Position numbers and translations under genes: made by a program
In this document: positions 396 to 38,034 of the stretch, one piece after another
How positions within the stretch are numbered: position 1 is the first letter of the stretch
How the letters are laid out: the number at the start of each line of letters is the position of its first letter
The notes under the pieces: model-generated
Database searches by the model: none
What the model was told of the DNA's origin: nothing
What the model saw: the letters and a program-made list of their open reading frames with translations, nothing else
From: Alkalimarinus coralli
GTDB taxonomy: Bacteria; Pseudomonadota; Gammaproteobacteria; Pseudomonadales; Oleiphilaceae
Direction: 5' to 3'
Length of the DNA: 64,000 bases
Assembly (NCBI RefSeq): GCF_023650515.1
Contig: NZ_CP096016.1
Coordinates: forward strand, 1,636,001 to 1,700,000

Positions 396-1001
396 ATGGG
401 TATCGATATGAAACATATTGTATGGCACGACCACCATATATCAAAAGAAGACCGAGCAGAACAGAAAAAACAGAAGCCCTGCCTCATCTGGTTTACCGGG
501 CTAAGCGGCTCGGGTAAATCAACCGTTGCAAATGCGCTGGAACAACAACTCTATATTGATAGCCATCATACTTATCTATTAGATGGAGACAACATCCGCC
601 ATGGTTTGAGTAAAGACTTGGGTTTTTCGGACGAGGACCGTGTCGAAAATATCAGGCGAATCGGCGAAGCGTCAAAACTGTTTGTTGATGCCGGGTTGAT
701 AGTGATGACGGCCTTTATATCCCCTTTTAAAAGCGATAGAGATATCGCTCGTTCGTTAGTTGAAGAAAGTGAGTTTATAGAGATTCACATGAATACACCC
801 CTGGAGGTGTGCGAGCAACGAGACCCTAAAGGGCTGTATAAGAAAGCCAGGGCCGGAATTATTCCACACTTTACCGGGATTGATTCAGAATATGAGGCAC
901 CAGAAAACCCGGAACTCACATTAAATACGGCCGTTTACTCTACCGACGAATGCGTCATAAAGATAATTGATTTTCTAACACGGCATCACTATATTTTTTG
1001 A
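396..1001 (+). CDS. cysC: Adenylyl-sulfate kinase (APS kinase)
   Basis: Phosphorylates adenosine 5'-phosphosulfate to PAPS, the activated sulfate used for assimilation and by sulfotransferases. The 201-residue protein has the P-loop GLSGSGKST at residues 35-43, the DGDNIRHGL segment near 63-71, TAFISPF near 105 and DPKGLYKKARAG further on, all hallmarks of CysC. It is full length for the family. An ATG at 408 (MKHIVWH) is an alternative start with a better spaced GGGT. It overlaps the next gene, an anion permease, so the two are probably co-transcribed. No cysD/cysN sulfate adenylyltransferase is visible here. Its position beside an EPS locus with sulfotransferases suggests PAPS supply for polymer sulfation, which is an inference. 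Confidence 0.95.
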   Translation: MGIDMKHIVWHDHHISKEDRAEQKKQKPCLIWFTGLSGSGKSTVANALEQQLYIDSHHTYLLDGDNIRHGLSKDLGFSDEDRVENIRRIGEASKLFVDAGLIVMTAFISPFKSDRDIARSLVEESEFIEIHMNTPLEVCEQRDPKGLYKKARAGIIPHFTGIDSEYEAPENPELTLNTAVYSTDECVIKIIDFLTRHHYIF

Positions 1002-1009
1002 GCGATGTG

Positions 1010-2734
1010 ATGCCTGTCGAGCAGCTAATCGTAGCCTTAGTCTCTATTCTTTTAATACTCGGGCTTATTTTTACCAAAGTGAACCCTGCTGTACTTTTCA
1101 GCGCAGGTGGACTCTCCTATTTAGTTACAGACCTTATCGAGCTTAAACCTCTACTCAATAGCTATACACACCCTGCACTTGTCACACTGGTACTACTCAT
1201 TATTATCTCTACCGCATTTGAGCGTACCCGCATGATTAGCATGATGGTAAGAAATTGCGTCGGTGAAGGCTTTATTGGGATTTTAAAGGCACTGCTGACG
1301 ACGTCATTACTCTCTGCTTTGCTAAACAATACAGCTGTTGTAAGTGTTTTGATCAGCGGGATCAAAAATAACAGTAAACTGTCTGCTCACCGGCTACTGC
1401 TTCCAATTTCTTACGCGGCCATTATTGGTGGCACATTAACCCTCGTCGGTACTTCGACGAACCTGATTATTAATGGCTTAATGGTGGAGCAAGGCTTGCC
1501 TGGTTTTAATCTGTTTTCATTCTTTGTGCCCAGTCTTATTCTGCTCTGCTTACTCATTCCGCTAGTCGTGCTAACCGCTTACCTCTTTCTGAGTAACGAT
1601 AAAGACGTTATGCGAGATGGCAGGCGCTACTTTGTCGAGGCGAAAGTCAATGATGACTCTCCCCTGATCGGCAAGACGGTACTCGAAAATGGTATGCGAA
1701 ACCTTGAACACCTGTTTCTGATTGAAGTTATCAGGCGGGATCAACTGATTTCACCTGTTTCGCCCAACGAGTTGATTGAAGCGTCCGATATTCTTATTTT
1801 TACCGGTGAAGTAAAGAAGCTTGATGACATTATGCAACTTCCCGGCCTAACACTATTTGATGAATCAATCGAAGTGCTGCAGCGCAATCTTGTCGAGGTT
1901 GTTATTAGCCCAACGGCTAACTTTATTGGCAAGTCAATTAAAGATTGCGATTTTAGAGCCACGTTTGATGCTGCGGTTGTTGCAATCAGACGGGGTGACA
2001 AGCAGTTATCTGGTAAAATGGGCGTACATCGAATTCAACCCGGTGATTCTTTACTGCTTGCCACCGGCCATGACTTCCTGATGCGCAAAAACATATCTCA
2101 AAACTTTTATATACTCTCCAAGAACGGTGTGCCCCCTACTAATGGCTGGAAGATGTGGCTGATGGCTATTGGCTTCCCTGTTGCTATTCTGGTGGGGACA
2201 TTCACTTCTCTGTCGTTACCTGAAAGCTTGCTGCTGTTTTCCATTCTGCTTTTGGTAACCAAGATACTCAAACCGGGTAACGTCAGACGAAGGTTTCCAT
2301 TTCAGCTGATACTCGTAGTAGGGTCTGCACTAGCAATGGCTCAAGTGGCGATATCGACCGGCGCCGTCGCCAAATTAGTCGAGCTTGTATTGCTGGCTGC
2401 GCCCGGGGTAACCGTCTGGGCAGGGTTTGTTGCGGTGTATTTGCTTACGTTAGTTCTGACAGAGCTTATCACCAATAACGCCGCAGCAGCGGTGATGTTT
2501 CCCATTGCGTTGGGGTTTGCTCAAGGGTTTGACGTGTCCGTGCTGCCTTTCATCATGGCAGTTCTTTACGGTGCTAGCGCTAGTTTTCTCTCTCCTTATG
2601 GGTATCAGACCAACCTTATCGTGTATAGCGCTGGCAATTACCGGCTGATTGACTATCTGAAGGTTGGTTTACCTATTTCGGTCGCCTACAGTCTGACTGT
2701 AATCAACATTGTTCCTGAGTTTTTTCCGTTCTAA
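1010..2734 (+). CDS. SLC13/DASS-family anion permease with two RCK_C (TrkA-C) domains, probable sulfate transporter
   Basis: An integral membrane protein of about 574 residues. N-terminal membrane segments (first at about residues 5-35) are followed by a cytoplasmic insert with two TrkA-C-like repeats (about 205-290 and 290-370), then another membrane block up to the C-terminus. The motif GTSTNLIINGL in the first half and the ITNNAAAAVMFPIAL stretch in the second are the paired NT-type motifs of DASS transporters; this architecture is shared with algal and bacterial SAC1-like sulfate transporters. The ATG at 1010 is preferred; a TTG at 998 overlaps the cysC stop. Tight coupling to cysC argues for sulfate as substrate, but the family also carries dicarboxylates and other anions. 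Confidence 0.85.
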   Translation: MPVEQLIVALVSILLILGLIFTKVNPAVLFSAGGLSYLVTDLIELKPLLNSYTHPALVTLVLLIIISTAFERTRMISMMVRNCVGEGFIGILKALLTTSLLSALLNNTAVVSVLISGIKNNSKLSAHRLLLPISYAAIIGGTLTLVGTSTNLIINGLMVEQGLPGFNLFSFFVPSLILLCLLIPLVVLTAYLFLSNDKDVMRDGRRYFVEAKVNDDSPLIGKTVLENGMRNLEHLFLIEVIRRDQLISPVSPNELIEASDILIFTGEVKKLDDIMQLPGLTLFDESIEVLQRNLVEVVISPTANFIGKSIKDCDFRATFDAAVVAIRRGDKQLSGKMGVHRIQPGDSLLLATGHDFLMRKNISQNFYILSKNGVPPTNGWKMWLMAIGFPVAILVGTFTSLSLPESLLLFSILLLVTKILKPGNVRRRFPFQLILVVGSALAMAQVAISTGAVAKLVELVLLAAPGVTVWAGFVAVYLLTLVLTELITNNAAAAVMFPIALGFAQGFDVSVLPFIMAVLYGASASFLSPYGYQTNLIVYSAGNYRLIDYLKVGLPISVAYSLTVINIVPEFFPF

Positions 2735-3090: not shown

Positions 3091-4545
3091 CTAGTACGCA
3101 TCATCAGTAAATAATATAAATACAGTCTTAATTAGAATTTTTATATCCAGCCAAATTGACCAGTTGTTTATATAGGCGAAATCGTAGTTGACCCGCTTTT
3201 GCATCTGCGCCACTGTTCGGGTTTCACCTCTGCAGCCATTGGTTTGGGCAAGCCCGGTAATACCCGGTTTGATGCGGTGTCTGGCCAGATAGGCCTCAAT
3301 TTTTTTATGAAAAAAGTAGTTGTGTTCAACCGAATGAGGCCTTGGGCCTACTAGTGCCATACTGCCATTAAGCACATTAAACAACTGTGGAAGCTCATCA
3401 ATACTTGTTCTGCGAATAAAGCGGCCAATCGGCGTGACTCTGGGGTCATTGCGGGTGGCTTGTTTACAACCATCATCCTTATGGAGATACATACTTCGGA
3501 ACTTCCAGACAGTTATCACCTTTCCTTCCCAGCCATGGCGTTTTTGGTTGAAAAATACAGGGCCGGGCGACGTTATTTTGATCAGTAAGGCAACGAGCAG
3601 AAGAAGTGGTGACAAGATAATTAGCGCAATAAACGCAAGCGACCTATCGATCACCTCTTTTGCCAGCGCCTGCACCCCGCCAAGTGGCGACTCAGACAGT
3701 GATATCAGTGGCACGCCGGCAATCTCTTTGACATTCAGATTGAGCAACGTCAAGCCAAAAACATCCGGCGCCCAAATCACATCGATGTTTTTATTAAGAA
3801 GCATAAGGTTGATGGAACTCAGTGCTTGCACATGGTTCATTGGGAGCGCGATATAGACTTTTTTTATTTTATAGCGGTTTATCACCCACGAGAGGTCGTT
3901 AATGTTGCCTAATACAGGCACATCTTTTACGTCCCAGTTCTCATCAGATTCTTTACCATCTTTATCAGTAACACTCCCTTCACCGATAACGCCAACAACA
4001 TGATCTCTAAGCCAAATATTACTATTGATCTTATTCGTAAGGTGGTGCGCAAGATGGCTGGTGCCGATTACAAGCACATGAAGGTCTCCCTCCACCGCAA
4101 TAGCATGTTTCTGATACGCCTTAATGATCGAGGTTGACGCTAAATAGGTTCCGACCTGGGCTGCAAAGGCAAGCGCCGCCCAAAGTAAAAATGTATTCGC
4201 TGAAAAAGATTCTATGCTTTGGGTAATAAACCCAATCACCACGAGCAGGCATAAAACAGACACCCACGCCCTACCAAGTGTAAACAGGCTTTTTAAATGG
4301 CCTATAAAGCAGCGATACACGCCATTTTTTCGATATACCATCCACATCAGGAGCACAGTAATAACTGCTAATAGGCTATGTTCTTTGCTGAACGACTCCC
4401 CTTGGGCAACAACAACGCCATAGAGCACCAGTATCGCAACGGCATTATCAATCAGCACTTGTAGCCACACGAATAACGATATGTGGTCTTGCAATAAACG
4501 CTTTGGACGGGCATCAGAAATAGATAAGGTTTGATCGTAGTACAT
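3091..4545 (-). CDS. Undecaprenyl-phosphate sugar phosphotransferase, WcaJ/EpsB type (EPS initiation)
   Basis: Polyisoprenyl-phosphate hexose-1-phosphate transferase that loads the first sugar on undecaprenyl phosphate. The N-terminal half (about 1-130) has several membrane segments, then a CoA-binding-like Rossmann region (about 155-270), then a membrane segment and the catalytic bacterial sugar transferase domain (about 290-484). That domain carries KFRSMY, the RRTSIDELPQLFNVL helix, LVGPRP and the PGITGLAQ block. At 484 residues it matches full-length WcaJ/EpsB-type enzymes rather than the short catalytic-only forms. ATG at 4545 has AGGAAAGGG upstream. It is divergent from the lipoprotein gene across a large regulatory region. 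The specific sugar (usually glucose or galactose) cannot be read from the sequence. Confidence 0.93.
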   Translation of the reverse strand: MYYDQTLSISDARPKRLLQDHISLFVWLQVLIDNAVAILVLYGVVVAQGESFSKEHSLLAVITVLLMWMVYRKNGVYRCFIGHLKSLFTLGRAWVSVLCLLVVIGFITQSIESFSANTFLLWAALAFAAQVGTYLASTSIIKAYQKHAIAVEGDLHVLVIGTSHLAHHLTNKINSNIWLRDHVVGVIGEGSVTDKDGKESDENWDVKDVPVLGNINDLSWVINRYKIKKVYIALPMNHVQALSSINLMLLNKNIDVIWAPDVFGLTLLNLNVKEIAGVPLISLSESPLGGVQALAKEVIDRSLAFIALIILSPLLLLVALLIKITSPGPVFFNQKRHGWEGKVITVWKFRSMYLHKDDGCKQATRNDPRVTPIGRFIRRTSIDELPQLFNVLNGSMALVGPRPHSVEHNYFFHKKIEAYLARHRIKPGITGLAQTNGCRGETRTVAQMQKRVNYDFAYINNWSIWLDIKILIKTVFILFTDDAY

Positions 4546-5182: not shown

Positions 5183-5294
5183 ATCTAAGTGGATTTATAC
5201 AAAAAGTTAACTATCTTTACAGAAAGAGACGGAAGCAGATTTGGCTTGTGGGCTGGACAATTTTTAGGTTCCAAACGTTTTGATGGGTGTAGAA

Positions 5295-6882: not shown

Positions 6883-8196
6883 ATGAAAATAAGCGTTATG
6901 GGTTTGGGTTACGTTGGGTCTGTATCAGCAGCTTGCCTTACTCGAAATGGCCACACTGTCATTGGTGTAGATACTAACCAAACCAAAGTTGATTTAATTA
7001 ACAGTGGGTTGACGCCTATAATTGAAAAAGATGTTGGTGAGATCATCAGGTCAAGTGTCAATGATGGCCTACTTTCAGCAACCACCAAAACAACGGATGC
7101 TGTCAGAGACACTGAGCTTTCAATAATCTGCGTCGGCACGCCCAGTATGCTAAATGGTAACCTCGATCTTTCATATGTGCGGCGGGTATGCGAAGAGATT
7201 GGGACGGCACTCCAGGATAAAAAACAATATCACACCGTTGTGGTTCGCAGTACGATGCTGCCCGGATCAATGCGCGATATTGTTATTCCCACCTTGGAAA
7301 ATGCCTCTGGCAAACACGCAGGCAAAGACTTTGGAATATGCATCAACCCCGAGTTTCTTAGAGAAGGGACTGCCATTTATGACTTTTATCACCCTCCTAA
7401 AACGGTCATTGGCTCAAGTGATAAGAAGACCTGTCAAATTGTATCTTCTCTTTATGAAGGGCTTGAGGCGCCATTGATTCAAACAGACCTGGCTACCGCA
7501 GAGATGGTCAAGTATACGGATAATGTTTGGCATGCGCTTAAGATCGGCTTTGCCAATGAGATTGGTTTAATCAGCAAAGCGGTAGGCATTGACGGTCATA
7601 AAGTAATGGATATTTTTTGTAGTGACCGTAAGCTCAACCTATCGTCAAACTATCTTAAACCAGGCTTCGCATTTGGCGGCTCATGCCTGCCAAAGGACGT
7701 GCGAGCCCTCGCCTACAAAAGTAAAAACCTGGATCTCACGCTCCCCATTATCAACTCAATTCTCCATGACAACGAGCGCCATATACGGCGCGGTGTGGAT
7801 ATGATCACGTCTAAAGGACATAGACGAGTGGGCATTTTGGGTATTAGCTTTAAGGCAGGAACTGATGATTTGAGAGAGAGCCCCGTCGTTGAAGTTATCG
7901 AGAGTTTACTGGGAAAGGGGTATGACCTAAAACTCTATGACTACAACGTCAATTTGGCCACCATCAGTGGTGCAAACAAAGATTATATACTCAATAAAAT
8001 CCCACATATCTCTCGACTCATGGTTGACTCCATGGATGAAGTTATGGAGCACGCAGAAACCGTTGTTATCGGCAACAATGCTCAGGAGTTCTGTCAGGTT
8101 CTGGGCAAAACACGGCCAGATCAGGTCGTCGTCGATTTTGTGCGTATATCTGATACTCGAAGCCAAGAGGGTAAGTACGATGGCATCTGCTGGTAA
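6883..8196 (+). CDS. algD: GDP-mannose 6-dehydrogenase (AlgD-like)
   Basis: Oxidises GDP-mannose to GDP-mannuronate with two NAD+, giving the uronic acid precursor for a polymer. The 437-residue protein is the size of AlgD (436). It has the NAD-binding GLGYVG at 7-12, the NPEFLREGTAIYDFYHPPKTVIG-type block at 155-177, Lys210 in EMVKY, and the catalytic Cys268 in FGGSCLPKD; the Lys and Cys numbers coincide with AlgD. A UDP-glucose dehydrogenase is the alternative, but the FYHPPKTVIG block and spacing favour GDP-mannose. AGGATTAAAA precedes the ATG. The stop overlaps the start of the following glycosyltransferase. No alg polymer-synthesis genes are nearby, so alginate itself is not implied. Confidence 0.88.
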   Translation: MKISVMGLGYVGSVSAACLTRNGHTVIGVDTNQTKVDLINSGLTPIIEKDVGEIIRSSVNDGLLSATTKTTDAVRDTELSIICVGTPSMLNGNLDLSYVRRVCEEIGTALQDKKQYHTVVVRSTMLPGSMRDIVIPTLENASGKHAGKDFGICINPEFLREGTAIYDFYHPPKTVIGSSDKKTCQIVSSLYEGLEAPLIQTDLATAEMVKYTDNVWHALKIGFANEIGLISKAVGIDGHKVMDIFCSDRKLNLSSNYLKPGFAFGGSCLPKDVRALAYKSKNLDLTLPIINSILHDNERHIRRGVDMITSKGHRRVGILGISFKAGTDDLRESPVVEVIESLLGKGYDLKLYDYNVNLATISGANKDYILNKIPHISRLMVDSMDEVMEHAETVVIGNNAQEFCQVLGKTRPDQVVVDFVRISDTRSQEGKYDGICW

Positions 8197-9379
8197 AATA
8201 TCTCGTGTCCTCATTATCGTTGAGAATCTCCCCCTCCCCTTTGATCGCCGAGTATGGCAGGAAGCCACCACATTAAGGGACTCCGGGTATCAAGTGTCGA
8301 TTATATGCCCGACAGGTAAGGGGTATGAGAAACGCTACGAAGTTATTGACGGCATCCATATCTATCGGCACCCACTGCCTTTTGAGGCTGACGGCGCATT
8401 AGGCTATTTGTGCGAATACTCAACCGCACTGTTCTGGGAGTTTGTATTGGCCTGGCGGGTGCTGTTCACGAGAGGGTTTGATGTAATCCATGCCTGTAAC
8501 CCACCTGACCTGATATTTATCGTGGCACTATTTTTTAAGCTGTTAGGCAAAAAATTTGTCTTTGATCATCACGATATTAACCCTGAGCTATACGAAGCAA
8601 AATTTGGAAAACGCGATTTCTTTTACCGACTAATGTTGTTTTTTGAACGATTGACTTACCGTACAGCAGACATATCGATCGCAACCAACAATTCGTACAA
8701 ACAGATAGCCGTTAAACGGGGAGGTATGCCCGAAGACAAAGTGTTTGTGGTCAGAAGCGGGCCAAGTCTCGACCGCTTAAAAATAATACCACCTGTTGAG
8801 TCGCTTAAAAAAGGCAGGCGATACCTGATTGGATACGTTGGCGTGATGGGTAAGCAGGAAGGTATTGATCTCTTATTGGAATCGCTCGCTTATATCGTTC
8901 ACACCCGAAAGCGTGATGATATTCATCTCGGGCTTATTGGTGGAGGCACGGAGATTGAAAACCTAAAACGTTTAGCGGTAGAACTTCGAGTCGACGATTA
9001 TGTAACGTTCACAGGTCGTGTGCCGGATAGTGAACTGCTTGAAATGCTAAATACGGCAGATATCTGTGTTAACCCGGATATCGCTAATGAAATGAATGAT
9101 AAGTCGACCATGAATAAAATTATGGAGTATATGGCGCTTGGTAAACCCATCGTTCAGTTTGATTTAACCGAAGGTCGGGTTTCTGCGCAGCAAGCGTCGT
9201 TATATGCCAATAAAAATGACCCTATAGATTTAGCGAACAAAATTGTTCAACTACTCGAAAACGATGAATTAAGAACTACAATGGGTCAGTATGGACAAAA
9301 CAGGGTCAAACAAGAACTTGAATGGGAGCATGAAGTCCCCAAACTATTGGCGGCTTACCAGGCCGTAGAAGCCACTTAG
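8180..9379 (+). CDS. Glycosyltransferase family 4 protein
   Basis: The 399-residue product from ATG 8180 begins MASAGKISRVLIIVENLPLPFDRRVW, a common GT4 opening in EPS loci. The N-terminal Rossmann domain carries the DHHDINPELY segment, and the C-terminal domain carries GYVGVMGKQEG, IGGGTE and the donor-site region ending in KIMEYMALGKPIVQFD. The frame stays open upstream to 7937, but that part overlaps algD; AGAGGG about 9 bases before 8180 supports the shorter start. It is translationally coupled to the GDP-mannose dehydrogenase, which hints at but does not prove use of its product. It acts at the inner membrane on lipid-linked sugar. Confidence 0.92.
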   Translation: MASAGKISRVLIIVENLPLPFDRRVWQEATTLRDSGYQVSIICPTGKGYEKRYEVIDGIHIYRHPLPFEADGALGYLCEYSTALFWEFVLAWRVLFTRGFDVIHACNPPDLIFIVALFFKLLGKKFVFDHHDINPELYEAKFGKRDFFYRLMLFFERLTYRTADISIATNNSYKQIAVKRGGMPEDKVFVVRSGPSLDRLKIIPPVESLKKGRRYLIGYVGVMGKQEGIDLLLESLAYIVHTRKRDDIHLGLIGGGTEIENLKRLAVELRVDDYVTFTGRVPDSELLEMLNTADICVNPDIANEMNDKSTMNKIMEYMALGKPIVQFDLTEGRVSAQQASLYANKNDPIDLANKIVQLLENDELRTTMGQYGQNRVKQELEWEHEVPKLLAAYQAVEAT

Positions 9380-10588: not shown

Positions 10589-10883
10589 TAATAGACGTGT
10601 AGATTGTTTTTTTCTAATTTATACGTACTACTCCCATTTCTATTGACCAAGACGCAGAATTCATGCTAGTGTCTTAAACATGATGAATATATATTCAATA
10701 CTTCTTACTCCCCAGTACTTGTCTTATACGGCCCGAGTTGCTCGTGCCTTACTCACTTTCGGCGGCTAGTTTTCTGCTGGTCGCCAAAGCACATTCTTTA
10801 TTTACTTTAACTTTCTACAAGGTGTTCGGTTAGCACAAAACCGAGCTTCTTTCTTACTGTTAATAAGACGCTCAAGGTACATC
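10589..10883. promoter_or_regulatory. rnk leader/intergenic region
   Basis: A gene-free stretch before rnk with several short hairpins: CGAGTTGCTCG near 10734, GGCG...CGCC around 10762-10787, and TCGGTT...AACCGA at 10826-10844 followed by a pyrimidine-rich run. The last could be a weak terminator or attenuator in the rnk 5' leader. No known riboswitch is recognised. Confidence 0.35.
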
Positions 10884-11282: not shown

Positions 11283-11340
11283 TCCATATGCATTGCAAAT
11301 ATCAAACATCCTATAATACAGAAACTAAGAAGGCACTATA

Positions 11341-12105: not shown

Positions 12106-12110
12106 TTACC

Positions 12111-16085: not shown

Positions 16086-16148
16086 TAATATAACCATGTG
16101 AAGGGTGTATTGATAGCTATAGCTCGTTTAATCAAGAGGTATGCGGTG

Positions 16149-21608: not shown

Positions 21609-21617
21609 TTTGACCAC

Positions 21618-22874: not shown

Positions 22875-22910
22875 TTGAAAACGGATTTCAATTATTCAAG
22901 GAAGACATGG

Positions 22911-29705: not shown

Positions 29706-29773
29706 AACACTCTCTCCACTATTCGTGACCAGAGAAACCAATTTTTAGCGCATCGCTTTTAAACATATAGTTT

Positions 29774-30910
29774 TTAAACACATGACAACTTGCCATATGC
29801 GCGCAACACTTCGTTCAAGGCATTATCAATAAACGATACCGCCCATCCGGGTCTGCCCAATGTTTCGCCTTTGGAACCTAACAACTGGGCAGCCACGTAA
29901 GACGCATTGTTGATCCCCCTTTCCAGTCGGCACCACTCGAATAGAAGGTAATGCTCTTTCTCTGTTAGGTAGTTGTCGACACCCAGCAACGAGGTGCTAT
30001 GTTGGTAGTGGCGAATTATTCGAGTAACCGTTTCATTGCCTGCTGAAGGAAACAGCGAGACAAAATCAGCATGGGGATAACCAACACCTGCCCACTCCCA
30101 GTCAAGAAACTTAATACTACTTTTGTTTTTTTTGTGGATCATGACATTTGCGGGGTTGCAGTCGCCGTGGATAAGACTTAACGGGTGCATTTCACGAATG
30201 CCTTCGCGACTATGGACGCTGGCGATTTTGTGCCACAAATCAAGTACTTTAACGACTTGTTCGCTACTGCTGTTCTGGCTGTAGCGGTTAAGACTATTAA
30301 GGCTGTATTCCTCAAGTAGCTTGGAAAACGTTTGGTTGTATTGCAGCAGTGCTTTTTTGTCTTCAGCAGTACAGGAGCGGTTGAGGGCATCATATAACAG
30401 AGGCAATACGTCAACCGTCTTGAAGAATGCCTGCCTCCCTGCAAACGACCCAACACCGCGATACTGGTTACTCAAGTCTTCCAACAGGTAGTGGTATTGC
30501 ACCCCCGGTTGAATCTCTTTATTAAGATATACATTTGGAATAAAGACGTTTAGCAAACTGTCTTTTTTGTTATAAATTAGGCACTCAGGAGGCCCTGGGC
30601 GAAGAGGAAACCCATCTAAAGCAGGGATATCTCGCCGCCCATAGATCGCATTCTTAAATATAAGGCTTTTTTTTCGCCCGGCGTTGAGTTGCAGGTAAAG
30701 CCGAAAAGCCCCTGCATCTTTCCAACCAGACAGATGAGAAAAGCGCGTGCCCTGTAATGCTTCTCCCCACGTCTGTTTAGCAACCTCGTCCACGGTATCA
30801 AACGAAAGACCTTCTGGTAGCCCCGGCTTAATGTCAGGCTTGGTTTTTCGTTTAGTTAACCATCTCCACCGGGATGCGATAATATTTTTTATCCGTTTAA
30901 CTGTAACCAT
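29774..30910 (-). CDS. Aminoglycoside/choline phosphotransferase-like kinase
   Basis: A 378-residue protein whose C-terminal half carries the APH/choline kinase signature: LIHGDCNPANVMI (Brenner HGDxxxxN motif, near residue 243) and IKFLDWEWAGVGYPHADFVSLF (metal-binding DxE-type, near 265). The N-terminal half is basic and divergent. Such kinases in polysaccharide loci phosphorylate sugars, ethanolamine or choline. Here it may phosphorylate a repeat-unit sugar or a precursor for polymer decoration; resistance to a drug is not implied. Same operon as the flanking glycosyltransferase and capsule-type protein. Confidence 0.8.
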   Translation of the reverse strand: MVTVKRIKNIIASRWRWLTKRKTKPDIKPGLPEGLSFDTVDEVAKQTWGEALQGTRFSHLSGWKDAGAFRLYLQLNAGRKKSLIFKNAIYGRRDIPALDGFPLRPGPPECLIYNKKDSLLNVFIPNVYLNKEIQPGVQYHYLLEDLSNQYRGVGSFAGRQAFFKTVDVLPLLYDALNRSCTAEDKKALLQYNQTFSKLLEEYSLNSLNRYSQNSSSEQVVKVLDLWHKIASVHSREGIREMHPLSLIHGDCNPANVMIHKKNKSSIKFLDWEWAGVGYPHADFVSLFPSAGNETVTRIIRHYQHSTSLLGVDNYLTEKEHYLLFEWCRLERGINNASYVAAQLLGSKGETLGRPGWAVSFIDNALNEVLRAYGKLSCV

Positions 30911-30989: not shown

Positions 30990-31934
30990 TTAATGAACCA
31001 AACTCAACGGCTGAGTCTCTTCCCATCGCTTACGGAAGTTCTGTAGCTCTTCTTCACTGTAAAAATGGCGATACCATTTTGAGTTATACATCATGTCTAT
31101 ATAGGCAGCCGGGAACTTAACATTGCTCTTAAACTCTTTATAAACACTGTTATACCACTTATCCTTACCTTCGTTGTCACTCACGATATGGAAGTCATCC
31201 AACCCCAAAAACTCTTTAAACGCCTTTGTTGCACAGTGATTGAGATTCTCCAATCTAACAATCATCACCTCATAACCCTTTCCGTTATATATTTTGTAAC
31301 CGGTGTCCTTGGGAAACTCTGTAGCCAGAAAATCAATATCAAAAACCTGTTTAAGTTCCATATCAAACCAGGTTAACGGCACATCATGGAGGTGATGCTC
31401 CAGGTAATGGGCTTTTAACTTCTCAATACAACCCGGCGCATTGGCCTGACATATGGTCAGCAATTCTTTGGGCCACCAAATAAAATTATGAAAGAAAGAC
31501 GACACATTGGTCGCAATGGGGTCGCGTAACGGCACGACAATTTTGATGTTTTTTCCTTTTTCTAACGCATTCCTGATGTAACGAGCTTGAGCCTTACGTT
31601 TGTATATCAGAAATTTATGTTTCTCGGGAAATTTATCCCAGCTTCCATAAGCGCGCTCAAATATCTGGCCATAGTACTGCTCACCTTCTTTACAGACACA
31701 ATGTGCTTTATCGACTCGCAGATGATGTTGGGGTCTTGCAGCAGCCAGTGAGTTTGTAAGCGAGCGTGATCCCACCTTTCCCATTGCCAATACGAACAAA
31801 TCTCCGTTTGCGCTATGGGTTCTTCTCGCTTCTTTAAAATATCTAAAGCTGGAACGAGCATTGTAATACGTTTGCTCGGCTAGTTTACGCACATCACCCT
31901 GTGTATCGATCAGTTTGGCTGTCCAGGCATTCAT
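30990..31934 (-). CDS. Putative capsular polysaccharide synthesis protein (PF10364-like, sulfotransferase-fold)
   Basis: A 314-residue protein with a P-loop-like FVLAMGKVGSRSLTNSLAAA (about residues 47-66), a second conserved IKIVVPLRDPIATNVSSFFHNF (about 134-155), and a C-terminal YNSKWYRHFYSEEEL block reminiscent of the NKWY motif of the putative capsular polysaccharide synthesis family. The order of these blocks equals the two PAPS-binding motifs of sulfotransferases, so it may be a third, divergent sulfotransferase. The function is not established. Same operon as the methyltransferases and APH-like kinase. Confidence 0.75.
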   Translation of the reverse strand: MNAWTAKLIDTQGDVRKLAEQTYYNARSSFRYFKEARRTHSANGDLFVLAMGKVGSRSLTNSLAAARPQHHLRVDKAHCVCKEGEQYYGQIFERAYGSWDKFPEKHKFLIYKRKAQARYIRNALEKGKNIKIVVPLRDPIATNVSSFFHNFIWWPKELLTICQANAPGCIEKLKAHYLEHHLHDVPLTWFDMELKQVFDIDFLATEFPKDTGYKIYNGKGYEVMIVRLENLNHCATKAFKEFLGLDDFHIVSDNEGKDKWYNSVYKEFKSNVKFPAAYIDMMYNSKWYRHFYSEEELQNFRKRWEETQPLSLVH

Positions 31935-31982: not shown

Positions 31983-33209
31983 TCAGGCTGTAATAACCTC
32001 CGGTTTGATATTCAACTTGCTGATGTCCCGTTGAATTTCGTTTTTATAAAGTGGGTTCATAACAATCACGATATGTGGTTGATAGTGTTTTAAAAAGTCC
32101 GGTGAAACCACCTCGTGACCTGTTCCCGCTGTAAACTTGCCACACTTATTGGGATTGATATCAACCACATAACTAACTTCATCATCTACATTCAGAATAT
32201 TTAAAAAAGTCACACCTTTTGAACCGCAGCCCCAAACAACAACCTTTAGGTTTTCATCTTTGAAATCACTCAGTCTTTTGCTCCAGTCACCTAACTTAGA
32301 GCGATAGCTAATATTGAAGTGACTGGCTGACTCGAGGTATCTGTCAAGATCAAACACTGAAGCTGAGCCACTTACCAAAACCCCGTCGCTTGCAGACTGA
32401 TGACTATTCTTCTCGAAAGCCTGCTCTGGCTCTACCTCGATAGCCAGGTACTGATTACCAAAAACGGTTGCAATACGGTTCATCTTAAAACCGCTTTTTG
32501 TAAAAGCTTCTTCACAGGATGTCTTACAAAAGTAACCACAATGTTCGTAAATAAGGTCCCATATCGCTACTTCATTAAACGTATAATTCATATCAGGGAC
32601 TTCAAAATAGAGGGCGACACCTGTTTTGCCGTTAATCGCCCTACGTATCGTTTCCAAAAACGCTACAGGGTTAGCAACGTGTTCAATGGCATGGCGGCAA
32701 CAGATAAAGTCGGCATCAAGATCGCCGTACTTTGGACTAAAATAATCCTTGATAATTTCGAAGTTAGAAGATGGCTGCTGAGTGCTGTCACTCGCCTTAT
32801 AGCTAGGGTCAAACCCAATGCCTTTATTGTTCCCCAACGTACACAACAGGCTGATAAAATCCCCTTTACCGCAGGCGATTTCGATAACCGTTTTATTGTT
32901 CAAACGATAGCGAGTGACCAACTGCTCCGCTAACTGCTCTGCAAATGACTGAAAGCTTGTAGAGTAATGCAACGAGCAATCATAGTCGTCGGTATACTTA
33001 ACCAGATCTGGCTCAAATGCGGAGTTATGAACATGACCACATTGACCGCACAGTTCGAGCCTTAAATCCCCTTTTTTTGCCCCCAATGCTTTGGGGCGCT
33101 CCGAGAGCAGAACGTTGCAAAACACTGGAATCCCCTTTATTTCTGCACAGCGACTCAGGTCGGAAGAGTCGCAAACGGGGCATTTTTCTGTTGTTGCTTG
33201 GCTTATCAT
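31983..33209 (-). CDS. Zinc-ribbon class I SAM methyltransferase, probable sugar C-methyltransferase type (copy 1)
   Basis: A 408-residue protein of the three-part layout: an N-terminal Cys4 zinc site (CPVCDSSD near 10 and CGQCGHVHNS near 53), a Rossmann SAM domain (VIEIACGKGDFISLLCTLG, GIGFDPS and CCRHAIEHVANP, about 108-205), and a C-terminal domain with VVVWGCGSKGVTFLNIL. This layout is typical of nucleotide-sugar C-methyltransferases (Methyltransf_13/14). It is a close paralogue of the next upstream gene (33223-34416), with 13 bases between. It would modify a deoxy- or keto-sugar of the repeat unit; exact position unknown. Confidence 0.87.
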   Translation of the reverse strand: MISQATTEKCPVCDSSDLSRCAEIKGIPVFCNVLLSERPKALGAKKGDLRLELCGQCGHVHNSAFEPDLVKYTDDYDCSLHYSTSFQSFAEQLAEQLVTRYRLNNKTVIEIACGKGDFISLLCTLGNNKGIGFDPSYKASDSTQQPSSNFEIIKDYFSPKYGDLDADFICCRHAIEHVANPVAFLETIRRAINGKTGVALYFEVPDMNYTFNEVAIWDLIYEHCGYFCKTSCEEAFTKSGFKMNRIATVFGNQYLAIEVEPEQAFEKNSHQSASDGVLVSGSASVFDLDRYLESASHFNISYRSKLGDWSKRLSDFKDENLKVVVWGCGSKGVTFLNILNVDDEVSYVVDINPNKCGKFTAGTGHEVVSPDFLKHYQPHIVIVMNPLYKNEIQRDISKLNIKPEVITA

Positions 33210-33222: not shown

Positions 33223-34416
33223 TTATAAGGTCAAAACTTCAGCCGAAACGGCTAGAGTTTTGAGTTCTTTTTCTATTTCTTGTTTATAAATCGCGTTCAT
33301 AACAATCACTGTATCTGGTTGATACTCTGTAAGTGCGTTGGGCATGACAATTTTATGGCCGGTTCCAGCCATAAAGTAACCGTCTTTATATGGATTAATA
33401 TCTACCACCAATTCAATTTCATCGGTAACACCCAACGTCGTTAAGAACGACACGGCCTTTGAACCTGAACCCCACAATACCAATTTTTTGTTTTGCTTAT
33501 GGTGCGAAGCCAACACCGATTTCCAGTAGTCGAGTTTCTCTTCCAATAAAGCAGGAAATTGAGTAATCATCTGCTTAAGCGAGGCGATTTCATCTTCCGT
33601 CTGGAAACCTGCACAACAGTTTTCTCCAATGTCATTCAGCGTGGGCTTTGCTTCAATGGCCAGGTACTGATCATCATATTCGGTGGTGACATCGAGCACA
33701 TCGAACCCGCACAACGTAAATAACGTTGCCAGTGATGCCTTGGTAAAGTATGAGCAGTGCTCATAGTAGATGTCCTCAAAGGCGCAACTTTCTATAATCC
33801 GCTCTGCATTAGGGATTTGAAAAAACACGGTCGTATCAACGCGATCAGCAATAGACCGCCTTACGGTTTTAACAAATTTGGCTGTCTCAGATATATGTTC
33901 GAGGGTCATTTTGCAGCAGAGAAAGTCACCGTGATAATTGGTGTATTTCTCGGAGTAGAAGTCTTTTATAAATGTAATCTGATTTTTGCTGGCAGGGTCT
34001 ATCCGCTCTTCAGAAAAGCCAGGGTCAAAGCCAACCCCGGTATTGTTTCCCAACTCACATAACAGGATTAGAAACTCCCCTTTACCGCAACCGATTTCAA
34101 TGACTCGCTTATTTTTCAACTGGTGCTTTTCTATTAATCGTTCAGCCAACATCTTATGAAACTGGTTGAACGTCTCAGAAAAACCCTGCGTCTCTTCATA
34201 ACGCCCGGAGTATTCTGTTAGCTTTGGATCAAATGATGTATTGGAAATAAAACCACACTGATTGCAATGGCCCAAGGTAATATGCCCTTTGGGATACGAT
34301 ACCGCTTCTTCCTTTGATTTTAGTAGTATGCAGCTATTTGTGGGTACTTCGTATGCTTCATGAAATACGTTCATGGTGCCTGTTTCGCAGTTAGGGCATG
34401 AATGATAAGTATTCAT
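33223..34416 (-). CDS. Zinc-ribbon class I SAM methyltransferase, probable sugar C-methyltransferase type (copy 2)
   Basis: A 397-residue paralogue of the following gene. It shares the N-terminal Cys pairs (CPNCETG, CNQCGFISN), VIEIGCGKGEFLILLCELGNNTGVGFDPGF, CCKMTLEHI and the C-terminal LVLWGSGSKAVSFLTTLG plus DINPYKDGYFMAGTGHK. Tandem duplication followed by divergence is the simplest origin. One copy may have changed specificity, or each may methylate a different sugar. Located between the third methyltransferase and copy 1 in the same operon. Confidence 0.87.
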   Translation of the reverse strand: MNTYHSCPNCETGTMNVFHEAYEVPTNSCILLKSKEEAVSYPKGHITLGHCNQCGFISNTSFDPKLTEYSGRYEETQGFSETFNQFHKMLAERLIEKHQLKNKRVIEIGCGKGEFLILLCELGNNTGVGFDPGFSEERIDPASKNQITFIKDFYSEKYTNYHGDFLCCKMTLEHISETAKFVKTVRRSIADRVDTTVFFQIPNAERIIESCAFEDIYYEHCSYFTKASLATLFTLCGFDVLDVTTEYDDQYLAIEAKPTLNDIGENCCAGFQTEDEIASLKQMITQFPALLEEKLDYWKSVLASHHKQNKKLVLWGSGSKAVSFLTTLGVTDEIELVVDINPYKDGYFMAGTGHKIVMPNALTEYQPDTVIVMNAIYKQEIEKELKTLAVSAEVLTL

Positions 34417-34454: not shown

Positions 34455-35681
34455 CTAAATGATTTTTGGTTCGGGGATTGGCACGATAAACTTGCCCCCC
34501 TTCTCTGTGTACTCTCTCTGTTGACTCAGTATTTCGTCTGTAAAGTTCCAAGGTAAAATAAGCGTGTAGTCAGGCATTTTTTCCAGCAAGGCCTCTGGCG
34601 CATAAATAGGAATGTGCTGTCCTGGCATATATAAGCCTTGCTTATGGGTATTTTTGTCAACCACGAAGTCGATCAAATCTGTGCCGATCTTGGCTGTATT
34701 GATCAACGTGCTCCCCTTTGCTGCTGCTCCGTATGCGGCGATACTGCTTCCCCCGGACTTAAGTTTATGCAGTAATGCATTGAGAGACTCAACGACATGG
34801 TTAACCCTTTTGGAAAAATCCTGGTAATACCCTATTTGGTCAACTCCTGAACGATGCTCTAGCTCCAGCAGTTCAGTCACCGAAGACTCAACCTCTTTTT
34901 GCTTGCCTACAAACAGCCTCAACGAACCGCCATGAATAGATAAGCGAACCACTCTGTTCAAGGATAAGTGATGTTGTGAGAAAAGGTGGTTTAATGCCGT
35001 CACCGAAAAGTAGCAGAGGTGTTCGTGATACATTGTGTCGAACTCGCAGTGGTCAACAAGATCTTTTACATAAGGCGCTTCTATAACAGCCACACCATTG
35101 TCTTTTAATAACTGCGCAATACCGGCGACAAAGTTGTTTAGATCAGCGACATGCGCCAGCACATTATTAGCGTGGATCACATCGGCCTTTTTCCCTTCTG
35201 CGACCAACCTCGTAGACAGTGCCTTAGAAAAGAAATCATTCAGGGTTTCAACACCTATTTTTTCAGCTTCTCTAGCCGGACCTTCTGCTGGGTCGATTCC
35301 CAGCACCTGAATACCATGGTTTACATAGTTCTTAAGTAGATAACCATCATTGCTGGCAAGTTCTACTGCCAGGCTCTCCGAGCCCAACCCCCTTTCCGCA
35401 ATAATCGCTTCAACATTTTCTTTGGAGTGTTTGAGGAGGTGCTCTGAGAAAGACGAATAGTATGGATAGTCTTCACAGAAAAGAACCGATGGTGGAACCG
35501 TTTCCATTATCTGTAGCAAGCTACAGTTTGGACAGAAGCCCACTTCAAGAGGAAAAACCGGATCTTTCTCTGACAATTGGCTTGGTTTAACCAGCCTGTC
35601 AGCAAGAGGCGTGTGGCCAAGGTCAAGTACCGGCTTTATGTCGGAACCCCCGCATATTCTGCATTCGGTGATTCTGCTCAT
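34455..35681 (-). CDS. Nucleotide-sugar C-methyltransferase (TylCIII/TcaB9-like)
   Basis: A 408-residue protein of the classic sugar C-methyltransferase family: zinc site CRICGGSDIKPVLDLGHTPLADRL and CPNCSLLQ, SAM site VELASNDGYLLKNYVNHGIQVLGIDPA (about 115-140), the catalytic-region FDTMYHEHLCYFSVTAL, and a C-terminal IAAYGAAAKGSTLIN. Members add a methyl group at C3 of NDP-4-keto-deoxyhexoses. It is more distant from the other two methyltransferases. Together with the cytidylyltransferase it points to a CDP-linked, C-methyl-branched sugar, which is inferred from context. Confidence 0.92.
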   Translation of the reverse strand: MSRITECRICGGSDIKPVLDLGHTPLADRLVKPSQLSEKDPVFPLEVGFCPNCSLLQIMETVPPSVLFCEDYPYYSSFSEHLLKHSKENVEAIIAERGLGSESLAVELASNDGYLLKNYVNHGIQVLGIDPAEGPAREAEKIGVETLNDFFSKALSTRLVAEGKKADVIHANNVLAHVADLNNFVAGIAQLLKDNGVAVIEAPYVKDLVDHCEFDTMYHEHLCYFSVTALNHLFSQHHLSLNRVVRLSIHGGSLRLFVGKQKEVESSVTELLELEHRSGVDQIGYYQDFSKRVNHVVESLNALLHKLKSGGSSIAAYGAAAKGSTLINTAKIGTDLIDFVVDKNTHKQGLYMPGQHIPIYAPEALLEKMPDYTLILPWNFTDEILSQQREYTEKGGKFIVPIPEPKII

Positions 35682-35734: not shown

Positions 35735-36790
35735 TTAATTTGCTACTAACCTGCTATGTTCAGGCAACACCCAACGCAAGTTATTATCAAGCAGGCCTTC
35801 TTCAATTAGCTGTTTTACATGCGCAATTCGCTTAAACTTAAATCCTTCGAATTCGTCTAGCGTTAACCCTACTTCTCGATAAGCCTCATAGAGTTGAACC
35901 ACACCGCGCAGTGCTGTCCATTGAGGTTTAAAACCATGGAGCGTGGTAGCAATTGAGTCACAATCAACTCGGTAGCAGCGTTTGTCTGGGCCTGCATCAT
36001 CCGCAAAGTCAATTTCACAATCAGGAACAACTGATTTAACCAACTCAGCCAGCTCTCTCATTCTGTAATTCTCGGTGGTTAACCCGACGTTAAACGCTCT
36101 ATTGTGGACGGATTCAATGGGCGCGGTTAACGCAGCAATATAGGCTCTAGCAATATCTTCAACATGAACCAGTGGTCGCCATGGCGTACCATCACTTTTA
36201 AGATGTACTCGACCGGTAGTAAACGCCCATGCCGTCAAGTTATTTAATACCAGGTCAAACCTGAGCCGGGGCGATACCCCATAAGCCGTTGAGGCTCTGA
36301 GAAAGGTGGGTGAAAATTTGTCACTTGCCATCGGTGCAAGCGCTAGCTCTACTGCAACTTTTGATTCACCATAAGGTGTAACAGGGTTAAATGCCGCAGC
36401 CTCATTAAGAAAGTTGTCACCTGATGCGCCATAGTTACTACATGAAGAAGCGAAAATGAATCGCTGTACACCCGCTTGTTTTGCAAGCGCCGCCAGGTTA
36501 ATTGATGCTTTTTCATTGATATCTTGCGTGAGTGATGGTTGGTAATCCCCTAATGGATCATTTGATAACCCGGCCAAGTGAACAATTGAGTCGATTCCAT
36601 CAAGGTCAGATAACTCAACATCTCGTATGTCTTTTTCAATTTGATCAACAGGCGTCAGGTCGCCTATAAATGTACAACGCCGGTATAGGTCAGAGTCCAA
36701 ACCGACCACGTCAAAACCGTGGTTTATAAGCATGGGGACGAGTACCGAACCAATATATCCATTATTTCCGGTGACTAAGACTCTCATCAT
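35735..36790 (-). CDS. NAD-dependent epimerase/dehydratase (extended SDR)
   Basis: A 351-residue extended SDR with the nucleotide-binding VLVTGNNGYIGSVLVPML at the N-terminus, HLAGLSNDPLGDY, FASSCSNYG (active-site Ser region) and YGESK (YxxxK), then RASTAYGVSPRLRFDLVLNNL and PLVHVEDIARAY. Directly adjacent to rfbF, so it probably acts on the CDP-sugar or a later intermediate as epimerase, reductase or dehydratase. It does not look like the CDP-glucose 4,6-dehydratase RfbG, so its step in the pathway is open. Confidence 0.88.
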   Translation of the reverse strand: MMRVLVTGNNGYIGSVLVPMLINHGFDVVGLDSDLYRRCTFIGDLTPVDQIEKDIRDVELSDLDGIDSIVHLAGLSNDPLGDYQPSLTQDINEKASINLAALAKQAGVQRFIFASSCSNYGASGDNFLNEAAAFNPVTPYGESKVAVELALAPMASDKFSPTFLRASTAYGVSPRLRFDLVLNNLTAWAFTTGRVHLKSDGTPWRPLVHVEDIARAYIAALTAPIESVHNRAFNVGLTTENYRMRELAELVKSVVPDCEIDFADDAGPDKRCYRVDCDSIATTLHGFKPQWTALRGVVQLYEAYREVGLTLDEFEGFKFKRIAHVKQLIEEGLLDNNLRWVLPEHSRLVAN

Positions 36791-37561
36791 TTAGCTCCAG
36801 GATTTCCAAGGTGGGTTAGGTTGAGACCAGAGGCTTTCGAGCGACTTTTTGTCTCTTACGGTATCCATGCACTGCCAGAAACCATGATGTTTATAGGCCA
36901 TAAGCTGTCCATCACTGGCCAGCCCCTCTAAAGGTTCTAGCTCCCATTGAGTTGCATCGCCTTCAACATAGTCAAATACTTCGGGCTCCAGTACAAAGAA
37001 GGCGCCATTAATCCACCCTTCTGCCGTTTGGGGTTTCTCCTGAAACTGACAAACTTGGTCGCCTTTAAAGCTTAGGTGGCCGAATCTTGCGGGTGGGCGC
37101 ACCGCCGTTAATGTTGCGAACTTACCGTGCGATTTATGAAACTTCAGCAATTCGTCAAGGTCGATATCTGAAACGCCATCACCCCATGTGAGCATAAACG
37201 TTTCGTTACCCACCCACTCTTTCAGGCGCTTGATTCTGCCACCGGTTGCCGTCCCTTGCCCGGTATCAACAAGATCTACAATCCAGTCAGGTGTATCAGG
37301 CGAGTGGAGTTCGACATCTCCTGTTGCCATTCTGACAGTCATGTTTGAGTTCAAAGGACAATAGTCTGTCATCCAGCGCTTGATATATTCACCGCGATAA
37401 CCCAGCGCTATAACAAACTCTTTAAAGTTGTACTGGTAGTAATGCTTCATGATGTGCCAAAGGATTGGCTGGGAACCAATGGTAACCATTGGCTTTGGTT
37501 TGAGTTCGGTTTCTTCGCCTAAGCGAGTCCCCAAACCACCTGCAAGTATCGCAACTTTCAT
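36791..37561 (-). CDS. rfbF: Glucose-1-phosphate cytidylyltransferase
   Basis: A 256-residue nucleotidyltransferase with the RfbF pattern: KVAILAGGLGTRLGEETELKPKPMVTIG (pyrophosphorylase loop), PILWHIMKHYYQYNFKEFVIALGYRGEYIKRW, MLTWGDGVSDID (metal-binding Asp) and WINGAFFVLEPEVFDY. It makes CDP-glucose from CTP and glucose-1-phosphate, the entry to CDP-dideoxy- and branched sugars. It heads the nine-gene minus-strand operon. The next enzyme, CDP-glucose 4,6-dehydratase, is not found in the window. Confidence 0.95.
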   Translation of the reverse strand: MKVAILAGGLGTRLGEETELKPKPMVTIGSQPILWHIMKHYYQYNFKEFVIALGYRGEYIKRWMTDYCPLNSNMTVRMATGDVELHSPDTPDWIVDLVDTGQGTATGGRIKRLKEWVGNETFMLTWGDGVSDIDLDELLKFHKSHGKFATLTAVRPPARFGHLSFKGDQVCQFQEKPQTAEGWINGAFFVLEPEVFDYVEGDATQWELEPLEGLASDGQLMAYKHHGFWQCMDTVRDKKSLESLWSQPNPPWKSWS

Positions 37562-38034
37562 CTTGTTATCTCCAGCTGATTCTCAAACAACGACAAATGA
37601 CGTAACCGTTTGAGCGCGACCATGCCTACCGTATGTTGTGCTATGGCTAGGCGTAATACTGCGATTCAAAAACAAGGAGTTTACAAGGCGACCAATTTGT
37701 AGCGGTTATTCCATTAACTCAATCAATTATTTTATATCTGAAAAATAACGCGTTCAGTTTTTAGTTTCCTTAAGCTAAAAAGTAGAGTTTAAACGGATAT
37801 ACCGCCAGTGATTGGAGTTGATGATTTTATAATTTTATTTTCTATAAAAAATGCTGTTAATAGCGAGCTTAAGTTTAGTTATTTAAATCAGCAAATTAGC
37901 GCTATTGAGATGAGTCGTTCCAAATGCTGGTCAATATTTGCGCAACGTTATGATTAGTCCTACCCTGAGTTACATAAAGTAATTTTTTGTAACGCTCTTA
38001 ATAACAACATCCATGAATAAGACAGGTACGGAAA
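37562..38034. promoter_or_regulatory. Divergent promoter region of the sugar-synthesis and export operons
   Basis: About 473 AT-rich bases between two divergent operons, with no gene. An inverted repeat GTTAC...GTAAC lies at about 37972-37993, about 40 bases before the Wza-like start. No CRP-type palindrome or copy of the 20-bp motif is seen. The region must carry both promoters. Confidence 0.45.

Follow-up and report, generated by a model that had tools for sequence, protein, structure and literature searches.

A locus at positions 396-43544 of a 64,000-nucleotide stretch of the Alkalimarinus coralli genome (NZ_CP096016.1, positions 1,636,001 to 1,700,000; hereafter the window) very probably directs the synthesis of a sulfated and probably mannuronate-containing exopolysaccharide (EPS) by the Wzx/Wzy route, with a dedicated supply of 3'-phosphoadenylyl sulfate (PAPS). 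It is a Wzx-type EPS locus with cysC, the gene for an adenylyl-sulfate (APS) kinase that makes PAPS, at its left edge. Two marks of a sulfated-polysaccharide cluster are present, namely a PAPS-synthesis gene within the cluster and sulfotransferase genes among those for glycosyltransferases. That the locus has its own source of PAPS for sulfating an EPS, the main reading of a preliminary description of this DNA, is well supported. The open reading frames (ORFs) named there were all found where it placed them, and its left edge at cysC holds; its right end at 38034 does not, since the assembly machinery is complete only with the Wza-like, Wzz-like, autokinase and ATPase genes that follow at 38035-43544. 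Sulfated-polymer systems of this kind are already known in other bacteria, and one likely sulfotransferase of the locus belongs to a family without an assigned function, PF10364 (NKWYS). The proposal that this family consists of PAPS-dependent sulfotransferases is the most novel part of the locus and the one worth specialists' time.

Two of the sulfotransferases, encoded at 21618-22397 and 27849-28718, pass the Pfam cut-offs, in agreement with their earlier designation as clear PAPS-type enzymes (Table 1). The nearest solved structure to the second is 3rnl, a sulfotransferase (E = 1.1e-45), followed by the heparan sulfate 3-O-sulfotransferases (3-OST-1, 4.7e-09). For the first, the best matches among solved structures are engineered proteins, with sulfotransferases appearing only at E values of 0.08 and above.

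The third enzyme, encoded at 30990-31934, had been proposed as a sulfotransferase from its motif layout, and both the motifs and profile similarity bear this out. It carries MGKVGS at residue 51 and LRDPIATNVSS from residue 136; the corresponding motifs of sulfotransferases are the 5'-phosphosulfate-binding loop and the 3'-phosphate-binding motif. Pfam describes PF10364 as a putative capsular polysaccharide synthesis protein and names no enzymatic activity for it, whereas a PAPS sulfotransferase is argued for here; a literature search on the name 'NKWYS' alone, with most subscription journals outside its coverage, found no paper. The Pfam model spans only the C-terminal half of the protein and both PAPS-binding motifs lie outside it. 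Of 369 genomes of the class, 11 (this one included) have a PF10364 match. In an alignment of ten Pfam-found sequences (nine of 11 relatives and the window protein, the two weakest, one of them at a contig end, being omitted), G52, G55, S56, R137 and P139 are invariant and K53, D138 and S145 are at least 90% conserved; in the two omitted relatives the RxP motif is present, whereas the loop departs from the exact GKVGS sequence. A wider scan (the best 80 of 133 stretches, with phyla taken from record titles) yielded 77 named loci in cyanobacteria, Bacillota, Planctomycetota, Chloroflexota, vibrios including V. diabolicus, and others. Regular expressions located the 5' motif in 77 and the 3' motif in 68 of 79 candidate relatives. 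When 59 of these were aligned with the window protein, M51-G-K-V-G-S56, R137 and P139 were invariant and S145 was at least 90% conserved, although only the 3' motif is independent in this 60-member set because the 5' loop was the search pattern. In Vibrio diabolicus (L157:9947-13877) two NKWYS-family genes lie close together with a glycosyltransferase-like ORF.

It could be argued that 30990-31934 encodes a P-loop protein other than a sulfotransferase, for example a kinase or a structural protein of capsule synthesis. The window protein gave no match to the Sulfotransfer models at E ≤ 0.001 or E ≤ 0.01, and a Foldseek search for a PAPS fold with its AlphaFold2 model (pLDDT 89.9), made without a positive control, gave no PDB match at E ≤ 0.001; TtuA ranked first (0.047), followed in second and third place by estrogen sulfotransferases (0.24 and 0.34, TM score ~0.3), amid unrelated proteins. 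Such a protein is nevertheless unlikely, given that both PAPS motifs are kept even in relatives found without use of the motifs and that profile comparisons point to sulfotransferases. With hhalign, the NKWYS profile aligned to that of 19 sulfotransferases with a probability of 96.9 (E = 1.3e-10), the motifs being superimposed, compared with 10.5 (E = 0.003) for a control of 19 APS kinases, each E value being for one comparison. Among the 60 members, 11 match Sulfotransfer_2, four Sulfotransfer_1 and one Sulfotransfer_3 at E ≤ 0.01, with no E value below 5e-05. Conversely, the NKWYS profile weakly matches five ORFs (E 2e-4 to 9e-4) in 17 stretches of relatives, all five of which are sulfotransferase-profile matches, and a profile search of the PDB placed heparan sulfate 3-O-sulfotransferases at the top (E = 0.003, over the RDP segment).

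Gene neighbourhood also argues for a sulfotransferase. A cysC gene lies in four of the 77 NKWYS loci (1.23 Mb in total), compared with an expectation of 0.17 from the cysC density of the Alkalimarinus family or 0.41 at one per 3 Mb (P = 3e-5 and 8e-4); these four loci, which we take all to be from Bacillota, may for that reason not be independent. Gracilibacillus kekensis has, in a row, an NKWYS gene, a sulfotransferase gene, a CysD-type gene, cysNC, an SLC13 permease gene and an inositol-phosphatase-family gene. Salinibacillus has two NKWYS genes followed, two ORFs on, by SLC13, cysC and an inositol-phosphatase-family gene, and in Vulcanibacillus and Alkalicoccus CysD-type and cysN(C) genes adjoin or lie near NKWYS. 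Three Grimontia loci combine NKWYS with SLC13. From these sequence comparisons it is likely that PF10364 is a family of PAPS-dependent polysaccharide sulfotransferases, and that the window polymer would then be a sulfated, mannuronate-containing, branched-sugar EPS served by three different sulfotransferases and a dedicated cysC-SLC13 pair. If so, PF10364 gains a testable enzymatic role.

The PAPS supply of the locus is represented by cysC, whose product passes apsK, an NCBIfam equivalog-domain model. The gene (396-1001) overlaps by 4 bases that of an SLC13 permease with two TrkA_C stretches (998-2734). This coupling, already remarked on in the preliminary description, recurs in relatives: of the 30 best SLC13 loci, the window included, 25 have cysC next to the permease gene. 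The 24 pairs outside the window are all on the same strand, 23 of them with cysC first and gaps of -61 to 148 bases (measured from mechanical starts) and one reversed at 580. A literature search for an SLC13 sulfate transporter with cysC found nothing relevant. The 4.83 Mb genome holds two cysC genes and four PF00685 sulfotransferase stretches, each of the four lying 18-28 kb from a cysC. The second cysC is in another region, next to rmlD, and two further sulfotransferase stretches lie 18-19 kb away from it.

This second region has features of its own. The cysC gene has rmlD on one side and on the other a type II secretion/MSHA-like system (L044:13242-17709 and L045:3022-5283), the GspE-type ATPase of which has an MshE-like cyclic di-GMP-binding domain. 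A 1081-residue ORF (L045:13096-16341) combines a weak sulfotransferase domain (residues ~147-220) with two family 2 glycosyltransferase (GT2) domains and is possibly a single-chain sulfating glycosyltransferase.

The sulfur-assimilation genes suggest that cysC is not needed for cysteine. The genome encodes two PF01507 proteins, one CysD (outside the window locus) and one CysH. With the thioredoxin-dependent APS-reductase model the latter scores 279.6 bits, above the cut-off of 235.3, and with the PAPS-reductase equivalog 156.8 bits, short of the required 254.2; it is also accepted by TIGR00434 and NF002537, the general models for cysH and phosphoadenylyl-sulfate reductase. A CC pair is present at residue 116 and CEPC at residue 205, and CC and CxxC cysteines mark the iron-sulfur, APS-using type of CysH. 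As CysH scores as an APS reductase, which takes APS directly, cysC should be spare for cysteine synthesis; a PAPS-type CysH, for which housekeeping sulfate assimilation would require cysC, is not what is found here. The argument is strong but not final, because some iron-sulfur CysH enzymes also accept PAPS.

The distribution of cysC was surveyed in 121 genomes of the family, including this one (cysC at E ≤ 1e-40, PF00685 at E ≤ 1e-5). The kinase gene is present in 63 and PF00685 sulfotransferases in 50; 47 genomes have both, three a sulfotransferase only, 16 cysC only and 55 neither (Fisher p = 3.9e-16, uncorrected for kinship). Thus cysC occurs in 47 of the 50 genomes with a sulfotransferase and in 16 of the 71 others, and two of the three sulfotransferase-only genomes are less complete (85% and 83%). 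The two genes are also neighbours: 14, 24 and 28 of 70 cysC genes lie within 10, 20 and 35 kb, respectively, of a sulfotransferase on the same contig, compared with 0.6, 1.1 and 1.9 expected, an expectation computed over the 52 cysC genes of sulfotransferase-bearing genomes, among which all 28 fall. A cysC mostly beside unrelated genes in relatives, an outcome that the preliminary description named as refuting its reading, is therefore not what is seen: the gene often adjoins SLC13, and it both co-occurs and co-locates with sulfotransferases. No cysC match was obtained at the survey cut-off in 58 of the 121 genomes, all four congeners among them, and neither did the congeners yield a PF00685 sulfotransferase.

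The 20 kb around cysC was examined in seven of the 16 cysC genomes without PF00685 and in ten of the 23 genomes with a pair within 35 kb. Sulfotransferase profiles matched in all ten of the latter, which had been chosen for having a known pair. In the seven former stretches SLC13 adjoins cysC in five and no NKWYS gene was found. Among their 109 ORFs of at least 180 residues, Polysacc_synt_2 (8), Epimerase (8), Glycos_transf_2 (6), Bac_transf (3) and Wzz (3) were recorded in a tally limited to the 25 commonest families; these are undercounts, as the ORF filter dropped genes (APS_kinase appears in four ORFs although seven cysC genes exist). As the seven stretches are rich in polysaccharide genes, the cysC-SLC13 pair appears to accompany a wider range of polysaccharide loci than those with a detected sulfotransferase.

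Several points weigh against an EPS sulfated from a PAPS supply of its own. In 24 of the 47 genomes with both genes no cysC-sulfotransferase pair lies within 50 kb on one contig; a search for PF00685 at E ≤ 1e-5 drew a blank in 16 of the 63 genomes with cysC; and six of the seven cysC stretches from such genomes lack a sulfotransferase or NKWYS match at E ≤ 1e-3, the remaining one having a weak sulfotransferase (3e-5, G043). With some cysC genomes and stretches showing no sulfotransferase, cysC-SLC13 alone is no proof of sulfation. To these may be added the Foldseek outcome, the predicted nature of both the Wzy role of 19050-20339 and the permease substrate, and the consideration that one of the sulfotransferases could use a lipid or protein acceptor.

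The cysC genomes without PF00685 and the seven stretches examined in them, five with SLC13 beside cysC and six without a sulfotransferase, lend something to the view that the cysC-SLC13 pair serves ordinary sulfate assimilation and is next to an EPS locus by chance, with the sulfotransferases drawing on general PAPS, as do the CysN-type GTPase domains in three of the 109 ORFs. This is decidedly improbable, however, in the light of the APS-type CysH, of the many genomes that have no cysC match, of the way in which cysC tracks sulfotransferases and of the polysaccharide genes around the pair even where sulfotransferases are absent. That the sulfotransferases act on some other acceptor (a Nod-factor-like lipid, a glycolipid or a protein) and leave the EPS unsulfated is the least credible alternative and has very little probability: a Pfam sulfotransferase domain does not tell which acceptor is used and rhizobia sulfate both Nod factor and lipopolysaccharide (PMC6192434), but the three minus-strand genes sit among the glycosyltransferase, methyltransferase and sugar-nucleotide genes of the locus, and in Synechocystis a Wzx/Wzy cluster with two sulfotransferases accompanies a sulfated EPS (PMC8205485).

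As to the chemistry of the polymer, the preliminary description had envisaged a uronic-acid polymer resembling glycosaminoglycans; the uronic acid is supported, and the glycosaminoglycan likeness rests on little since the AlgD-like enzyme indicates mannuronic acid. That enzyme (6883-8196) was correctly named: its best match among solved structures is the GDP-mannose dehydrogenase 1mfz (E = 5.1e-157, runner-up 1.1e-69), and it has no other close copy in the genome, the next matches being 33% and 28% identical. Of the NCBIfam models only the general TIGR03026 passes its cut-off; an assignment as UDP-glucose dehydrogenase, considered from NCBIfam, was rejected, as GDP-mannose dehydrogenase leads by about 87 orders of magnitude. 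Mannuronic acid is probably a better guess than a glycosaminoglycan-type uronic acid, and of what a glycosaminoglycan-like repeat of alternating hexosamine and uronic acid would call for, only the uronic-acid precursor enzyme was seen. The heparinase-like protein (12292-14349) does have heparinase II/III domains. The supposed beta-helix protein (16098-17882) fares less well, with no Pfam match and a weak similarity to the alginate lyase 7o7a (E = 0.0062). The locus shares AlgD GDP-mannose dehydrogenase with the alginate biosynthesis operon but differs from it in polymerization, which for alginate is synthase-dependent and involves Alg8/Alg44 with PilZ; a Pfam scan of the locus ORFs, confined to the window, gave no match to PilZ or alginate-assembly families.

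The right flank of the locus, from lpd onward, is collinear in one congener (G020; ~72% DNA identity). Of 36 proteins from the locus, lpd and the left flank that were tried against 60 kb of this genome, only lpd and part of the ATPase were found. The ATPase remnant (L176:12661-13278, by lpd) covers 205 of 282 residues at 92% identity and its frame holds stops. The locus is accessory, and in G020 it has probably been lost or replaced. If the present interpretation is true, an accessory cysC, often with SLC13, could be a usable genome marker for sulfated-polymer loci in this family.

From the enzyme families, motifs, gene order and co-occurrence obtained with sequence tools, we infer the substrates, the order of steps and the sulfate in the product as follows. 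The SLC13 permease would import sulfate, and ATP sulfurylase (CysD elsewhere in the genome, with CysN assumed) would make APS, which the window CysC would phosphorylate to PAPS; sulfur for cysteine would leave at APS through the APS-type CysH, so that CysC would serve sulfation rather than cysteine. The WcaJ-like enzyme is predicted to load glucose-1-phosphate onto undecaprenyl phosphate at the cytoplasmic face, and five GT2 or family 4 (GT4) transferases would extend the repeat; its sugars would include mannuronic acid, by way of AlgD, and a branched one derived from a CDP-sugar, by way of RfbF, the epimerase and the C-methyltransferases. The three PAPS sulfotransferases, one of them NKWYS, would sulfate the lipid-linked repeat, Wzx would flip it and the 19050-20339 protein would polymerize it. 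The co-polymerase, kinase and export proteins (38035-43544) would govern length and secretion, and the heparinase-like protein may trim the polymer.

The remaining genes of the locus are listed in Table 1. An initiating transferase, a flippase, a co-polymerase and an export protein, as expected of a Wzx/Wzy-dependent EPS locus, are each present, and the interior holds the five GT2/GT4 transferases and RfbF with the epimerase and three C-methyltransferase-like genes. The real start of the GT4 gene at 7937-9379 is probably further in, because the mechanical start overlaps algD. To the right of 43544 are a pyridine-nucleotide-disulphide oxidoreductase gene (lpd) and then a type II secretion cluster; to the left of cysC lie what we take, from their sequences, to be a bioA-like aminotransferase gene and an HD-GYP-like gene.

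Table 1. Predicted features of the A. coralli EPS locus (window coordinates; values are E values unless given in bits).
Feature	Position	Strand	Evidence
cysC, adenylyl-sulfate (APS) kinase making PAPS	396..1001	+	Pfam APS_kinase 8.7e-70; NCBIfam apsK 277.5 bits, cut-off 138.7
SLC13/DASS-type permease, likely sulfate importer	998..2734	+	CitMHS 7.1e-39, TrkA_C 3.4e-21
Initiating undecaprenyl-phosphate glucose phosphotransferase (WcaJ-like)	3091..4545	-	TIGR03023 457.8 bits, cut-off 410.75
AlgD-like GDP-mannose 6-dehydrogenase (GDP-mannuronate)	6883..8196	+	PDB 1mfz 5.1e-157, full length
GT4-type glycosyltransferase	7937..9379 (mechanical start)	+	Glyco_trans_1_4 1.4e-23
Heparinase II/III-like polysaccharide lyase	12292..14349	-	Hepar_II_III_C 2.6e-49, Hepar_II_III_N, Alginate_lyase 8.9e-10; PDB heparinase III
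GT4-type glycosyltransferase	14858..15973	+	Glycos_transf_1 3.2e-30
Secreted protein, possibly beta-helix polysaccharide lyase	16098..17882	+	Weak PDB alginate lyase 7o7a 0.0062; no Pfam match
GT2 glycosyltransferase	18022..18888	-	Glycos_transf_2 2e-33
Candidate Wzy polymerase	19050..20339	-	11 hydrophobic segments (simple hydropathy count); no Pfam match
GT4-type glycosyltransferase	20373..21617	-	Glyco_trans_1_4 2.7e-20
Sulfotransferase 1	21618..22397	-	Sulfotransfer_1 1.5e-11, over cut-off; motifs GCQRSGTT, RNPHSVVCS
Wzx-type flippase	25252..26718	+	Polysacc_synt_3 3.8e-91
Sulfotransferase 2	27849..28718	-	Sulfotransfer_3 2.2e-17, Sulfotransfer_1 7.2e-15, over curated cut-offs
GT2 glycosyltransferase	28791..29741	-	Glycos_transf_2 7.7e-30
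APH/choline-kinase-like predicted kinase	29774..30910	-	APH 1.1e-09
Likely sulfotransferase 3, PF10364 NKWYS family	30990..31934	-	NKWYS 8.4e-29; PAPS motifs kept in relatives; hhalign probability 96.9
C-methyltransferase-like	31983..33209	-	Methyltransf_14 1.8e-14
C-methyltransferase-like	33223..34416	-	Methyltransf_14 1.8e-15
Sugar C-methyltransferase with zinc-binding domain	34455..35681	-	Methyltransf_14 1.4e-59, Methyltransf_13 2.7e-23
NDP-sugar epimerase/dehydratase	35735..36790	-	Epimerase 2.5e-43
Glucose-1-phosphate cytidylyltransferase (RfbF)	36791..37561	-	TIGR02623 359.6 bits, cut-off 300.25
Outer-membrane polysaccharide export protein (Wza-like)	38035..38715	+	Poly_export 3.5e-24
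Probable outer-membrane barrel protein	38762..39985	+	From sequence; between export and co-polymerase genes; no Pfam/NCBIfam match
Polysaccharide co-polymerase (Wzz-type)	40007..41764	+	Wzz 1.6e-08; XrtA chain-length determinant below cut-off
Tyrosine autokinase domain of Wzc-type system	41777..42604	+	TIGR03018 1.2e-42, below cut-off
XrtA-associated-type ATPase	42696..43544	+	TIGR03015 263.9 bits, below cut-off 324.5

The locus also contains several other genes. Between the AlgD and glycosyltransferase genes and the heparinase-like gene (9422-12105) lie PhoX-like, GreA/GreB C-terminal and HemD-like genes, unusual in an EPS locus. A toxin-like PIN-domain protein is encoded at 27250-27675, and a 330-residue ORF at 23779-24771 (minus strand) has no Pfam or NCBIfam match. 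Adjoining the AlgD gene, 5280-6668 encodes a probable secreted lipoprotein with bacterial TSP3 repeats, which are of the calcium-binding type. A lipoprotein-like gene with an FGE-sulfatase domain is present at 22875-23771 with no sulfatase nearby; a role as sulfatase activator in polymer turnover was considered and rejected in view of its lipoprotein-like character and the distance of the only PF00884 match in the genome, about 2.8 Mb away.

Sulfated EPS has been reviewed among marine bacteria, including Alteromonas infernus (PMC4189415), and sulfotransferases have been noted in a putative cluster of Kiritimatiellae (PMC7356697). Polysaccharide sulfotransferases are of interest for the production of glycosaminoglycan-like polymers (PMC11641403, PMC4189415). 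Literature searches for a sulfated EPS with a sulfotransferase and cysC, and for a Marinobacter sulfated EPS with a sulfotransferase, found no paper. The preliminary description had called sulfated polymers uncommon and poorly described in gammaproteobacteria; the frequency of PF00685 in the family (50 of 121 genomes) and two published loci (PMC11641403, PMC11766843) contradict this. In Vibrio sp. KMM 8419, a gammaproteobacterium with a sulfated capsule established by nuclear magnetic resonance (NMR), a single surface-polysaccharide locus holds a second PAPS gene set (cysC, cysN and cysD) and three sulfotransferases, a combination of PAPS genes and sulfotransferases that its authors regard as a hallmark (PMC11641403). 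It resembles the window locus in these respects and differs in its ATP-binding cassette (ABC; Kps) export, its rhamnose-glucose polymer and its own cysND, the window locus having cysC only. Cobetia marina KMM 1449, also with an NMR-established sulfated capsule, has cysNC, cysD, cysQ and a sulfate permease gene in a polysaccharide cluster with sulfotransferases; export is again of the ABC (Kps) type, the polymer is of rhamnose and mannose with glycerophosphate, and it is not described as a Wzx/Wzy EPS (PMC11766843).

Nearer in assembly route is the synechan xss cluster of Synechocystis PCC 6803, which encodes two sulfotransferases and eight glycosyltransferases for an EPS of the Wzx/Wzy type and for which a sulfated product has been shown; its sugars are different, and the main text of the report contains neither the term 'PAPS' nor, in the part available, mention of AlgD, a heparinase-like protein or NKWYS (PMC8205485). 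In 2021 its authors wrote that, to their knowledge, EPS clusters of other bacteria had no sulfotransferase, a statement superseded by the later Vibrio and Cobetia papers. The classic dedicated PAPS supply is rhizobial NodPQ, which with NodH parallels the window locus in that PAPS-synthesis genes serve sulfation while CysH prefers APS, and departs from it in the acceptors, Nod factor and lipopolysaccharide, and in forming a whole sulfate-activation complex beside CysDN (PMC6192434). If the interpretation given here is true, the polymer of the A. coralli locus joins those bacterial sulfated polymers for which the genes have been described, as an EPS of the Wzx/Wzy type that probably contains mannuronic acid.

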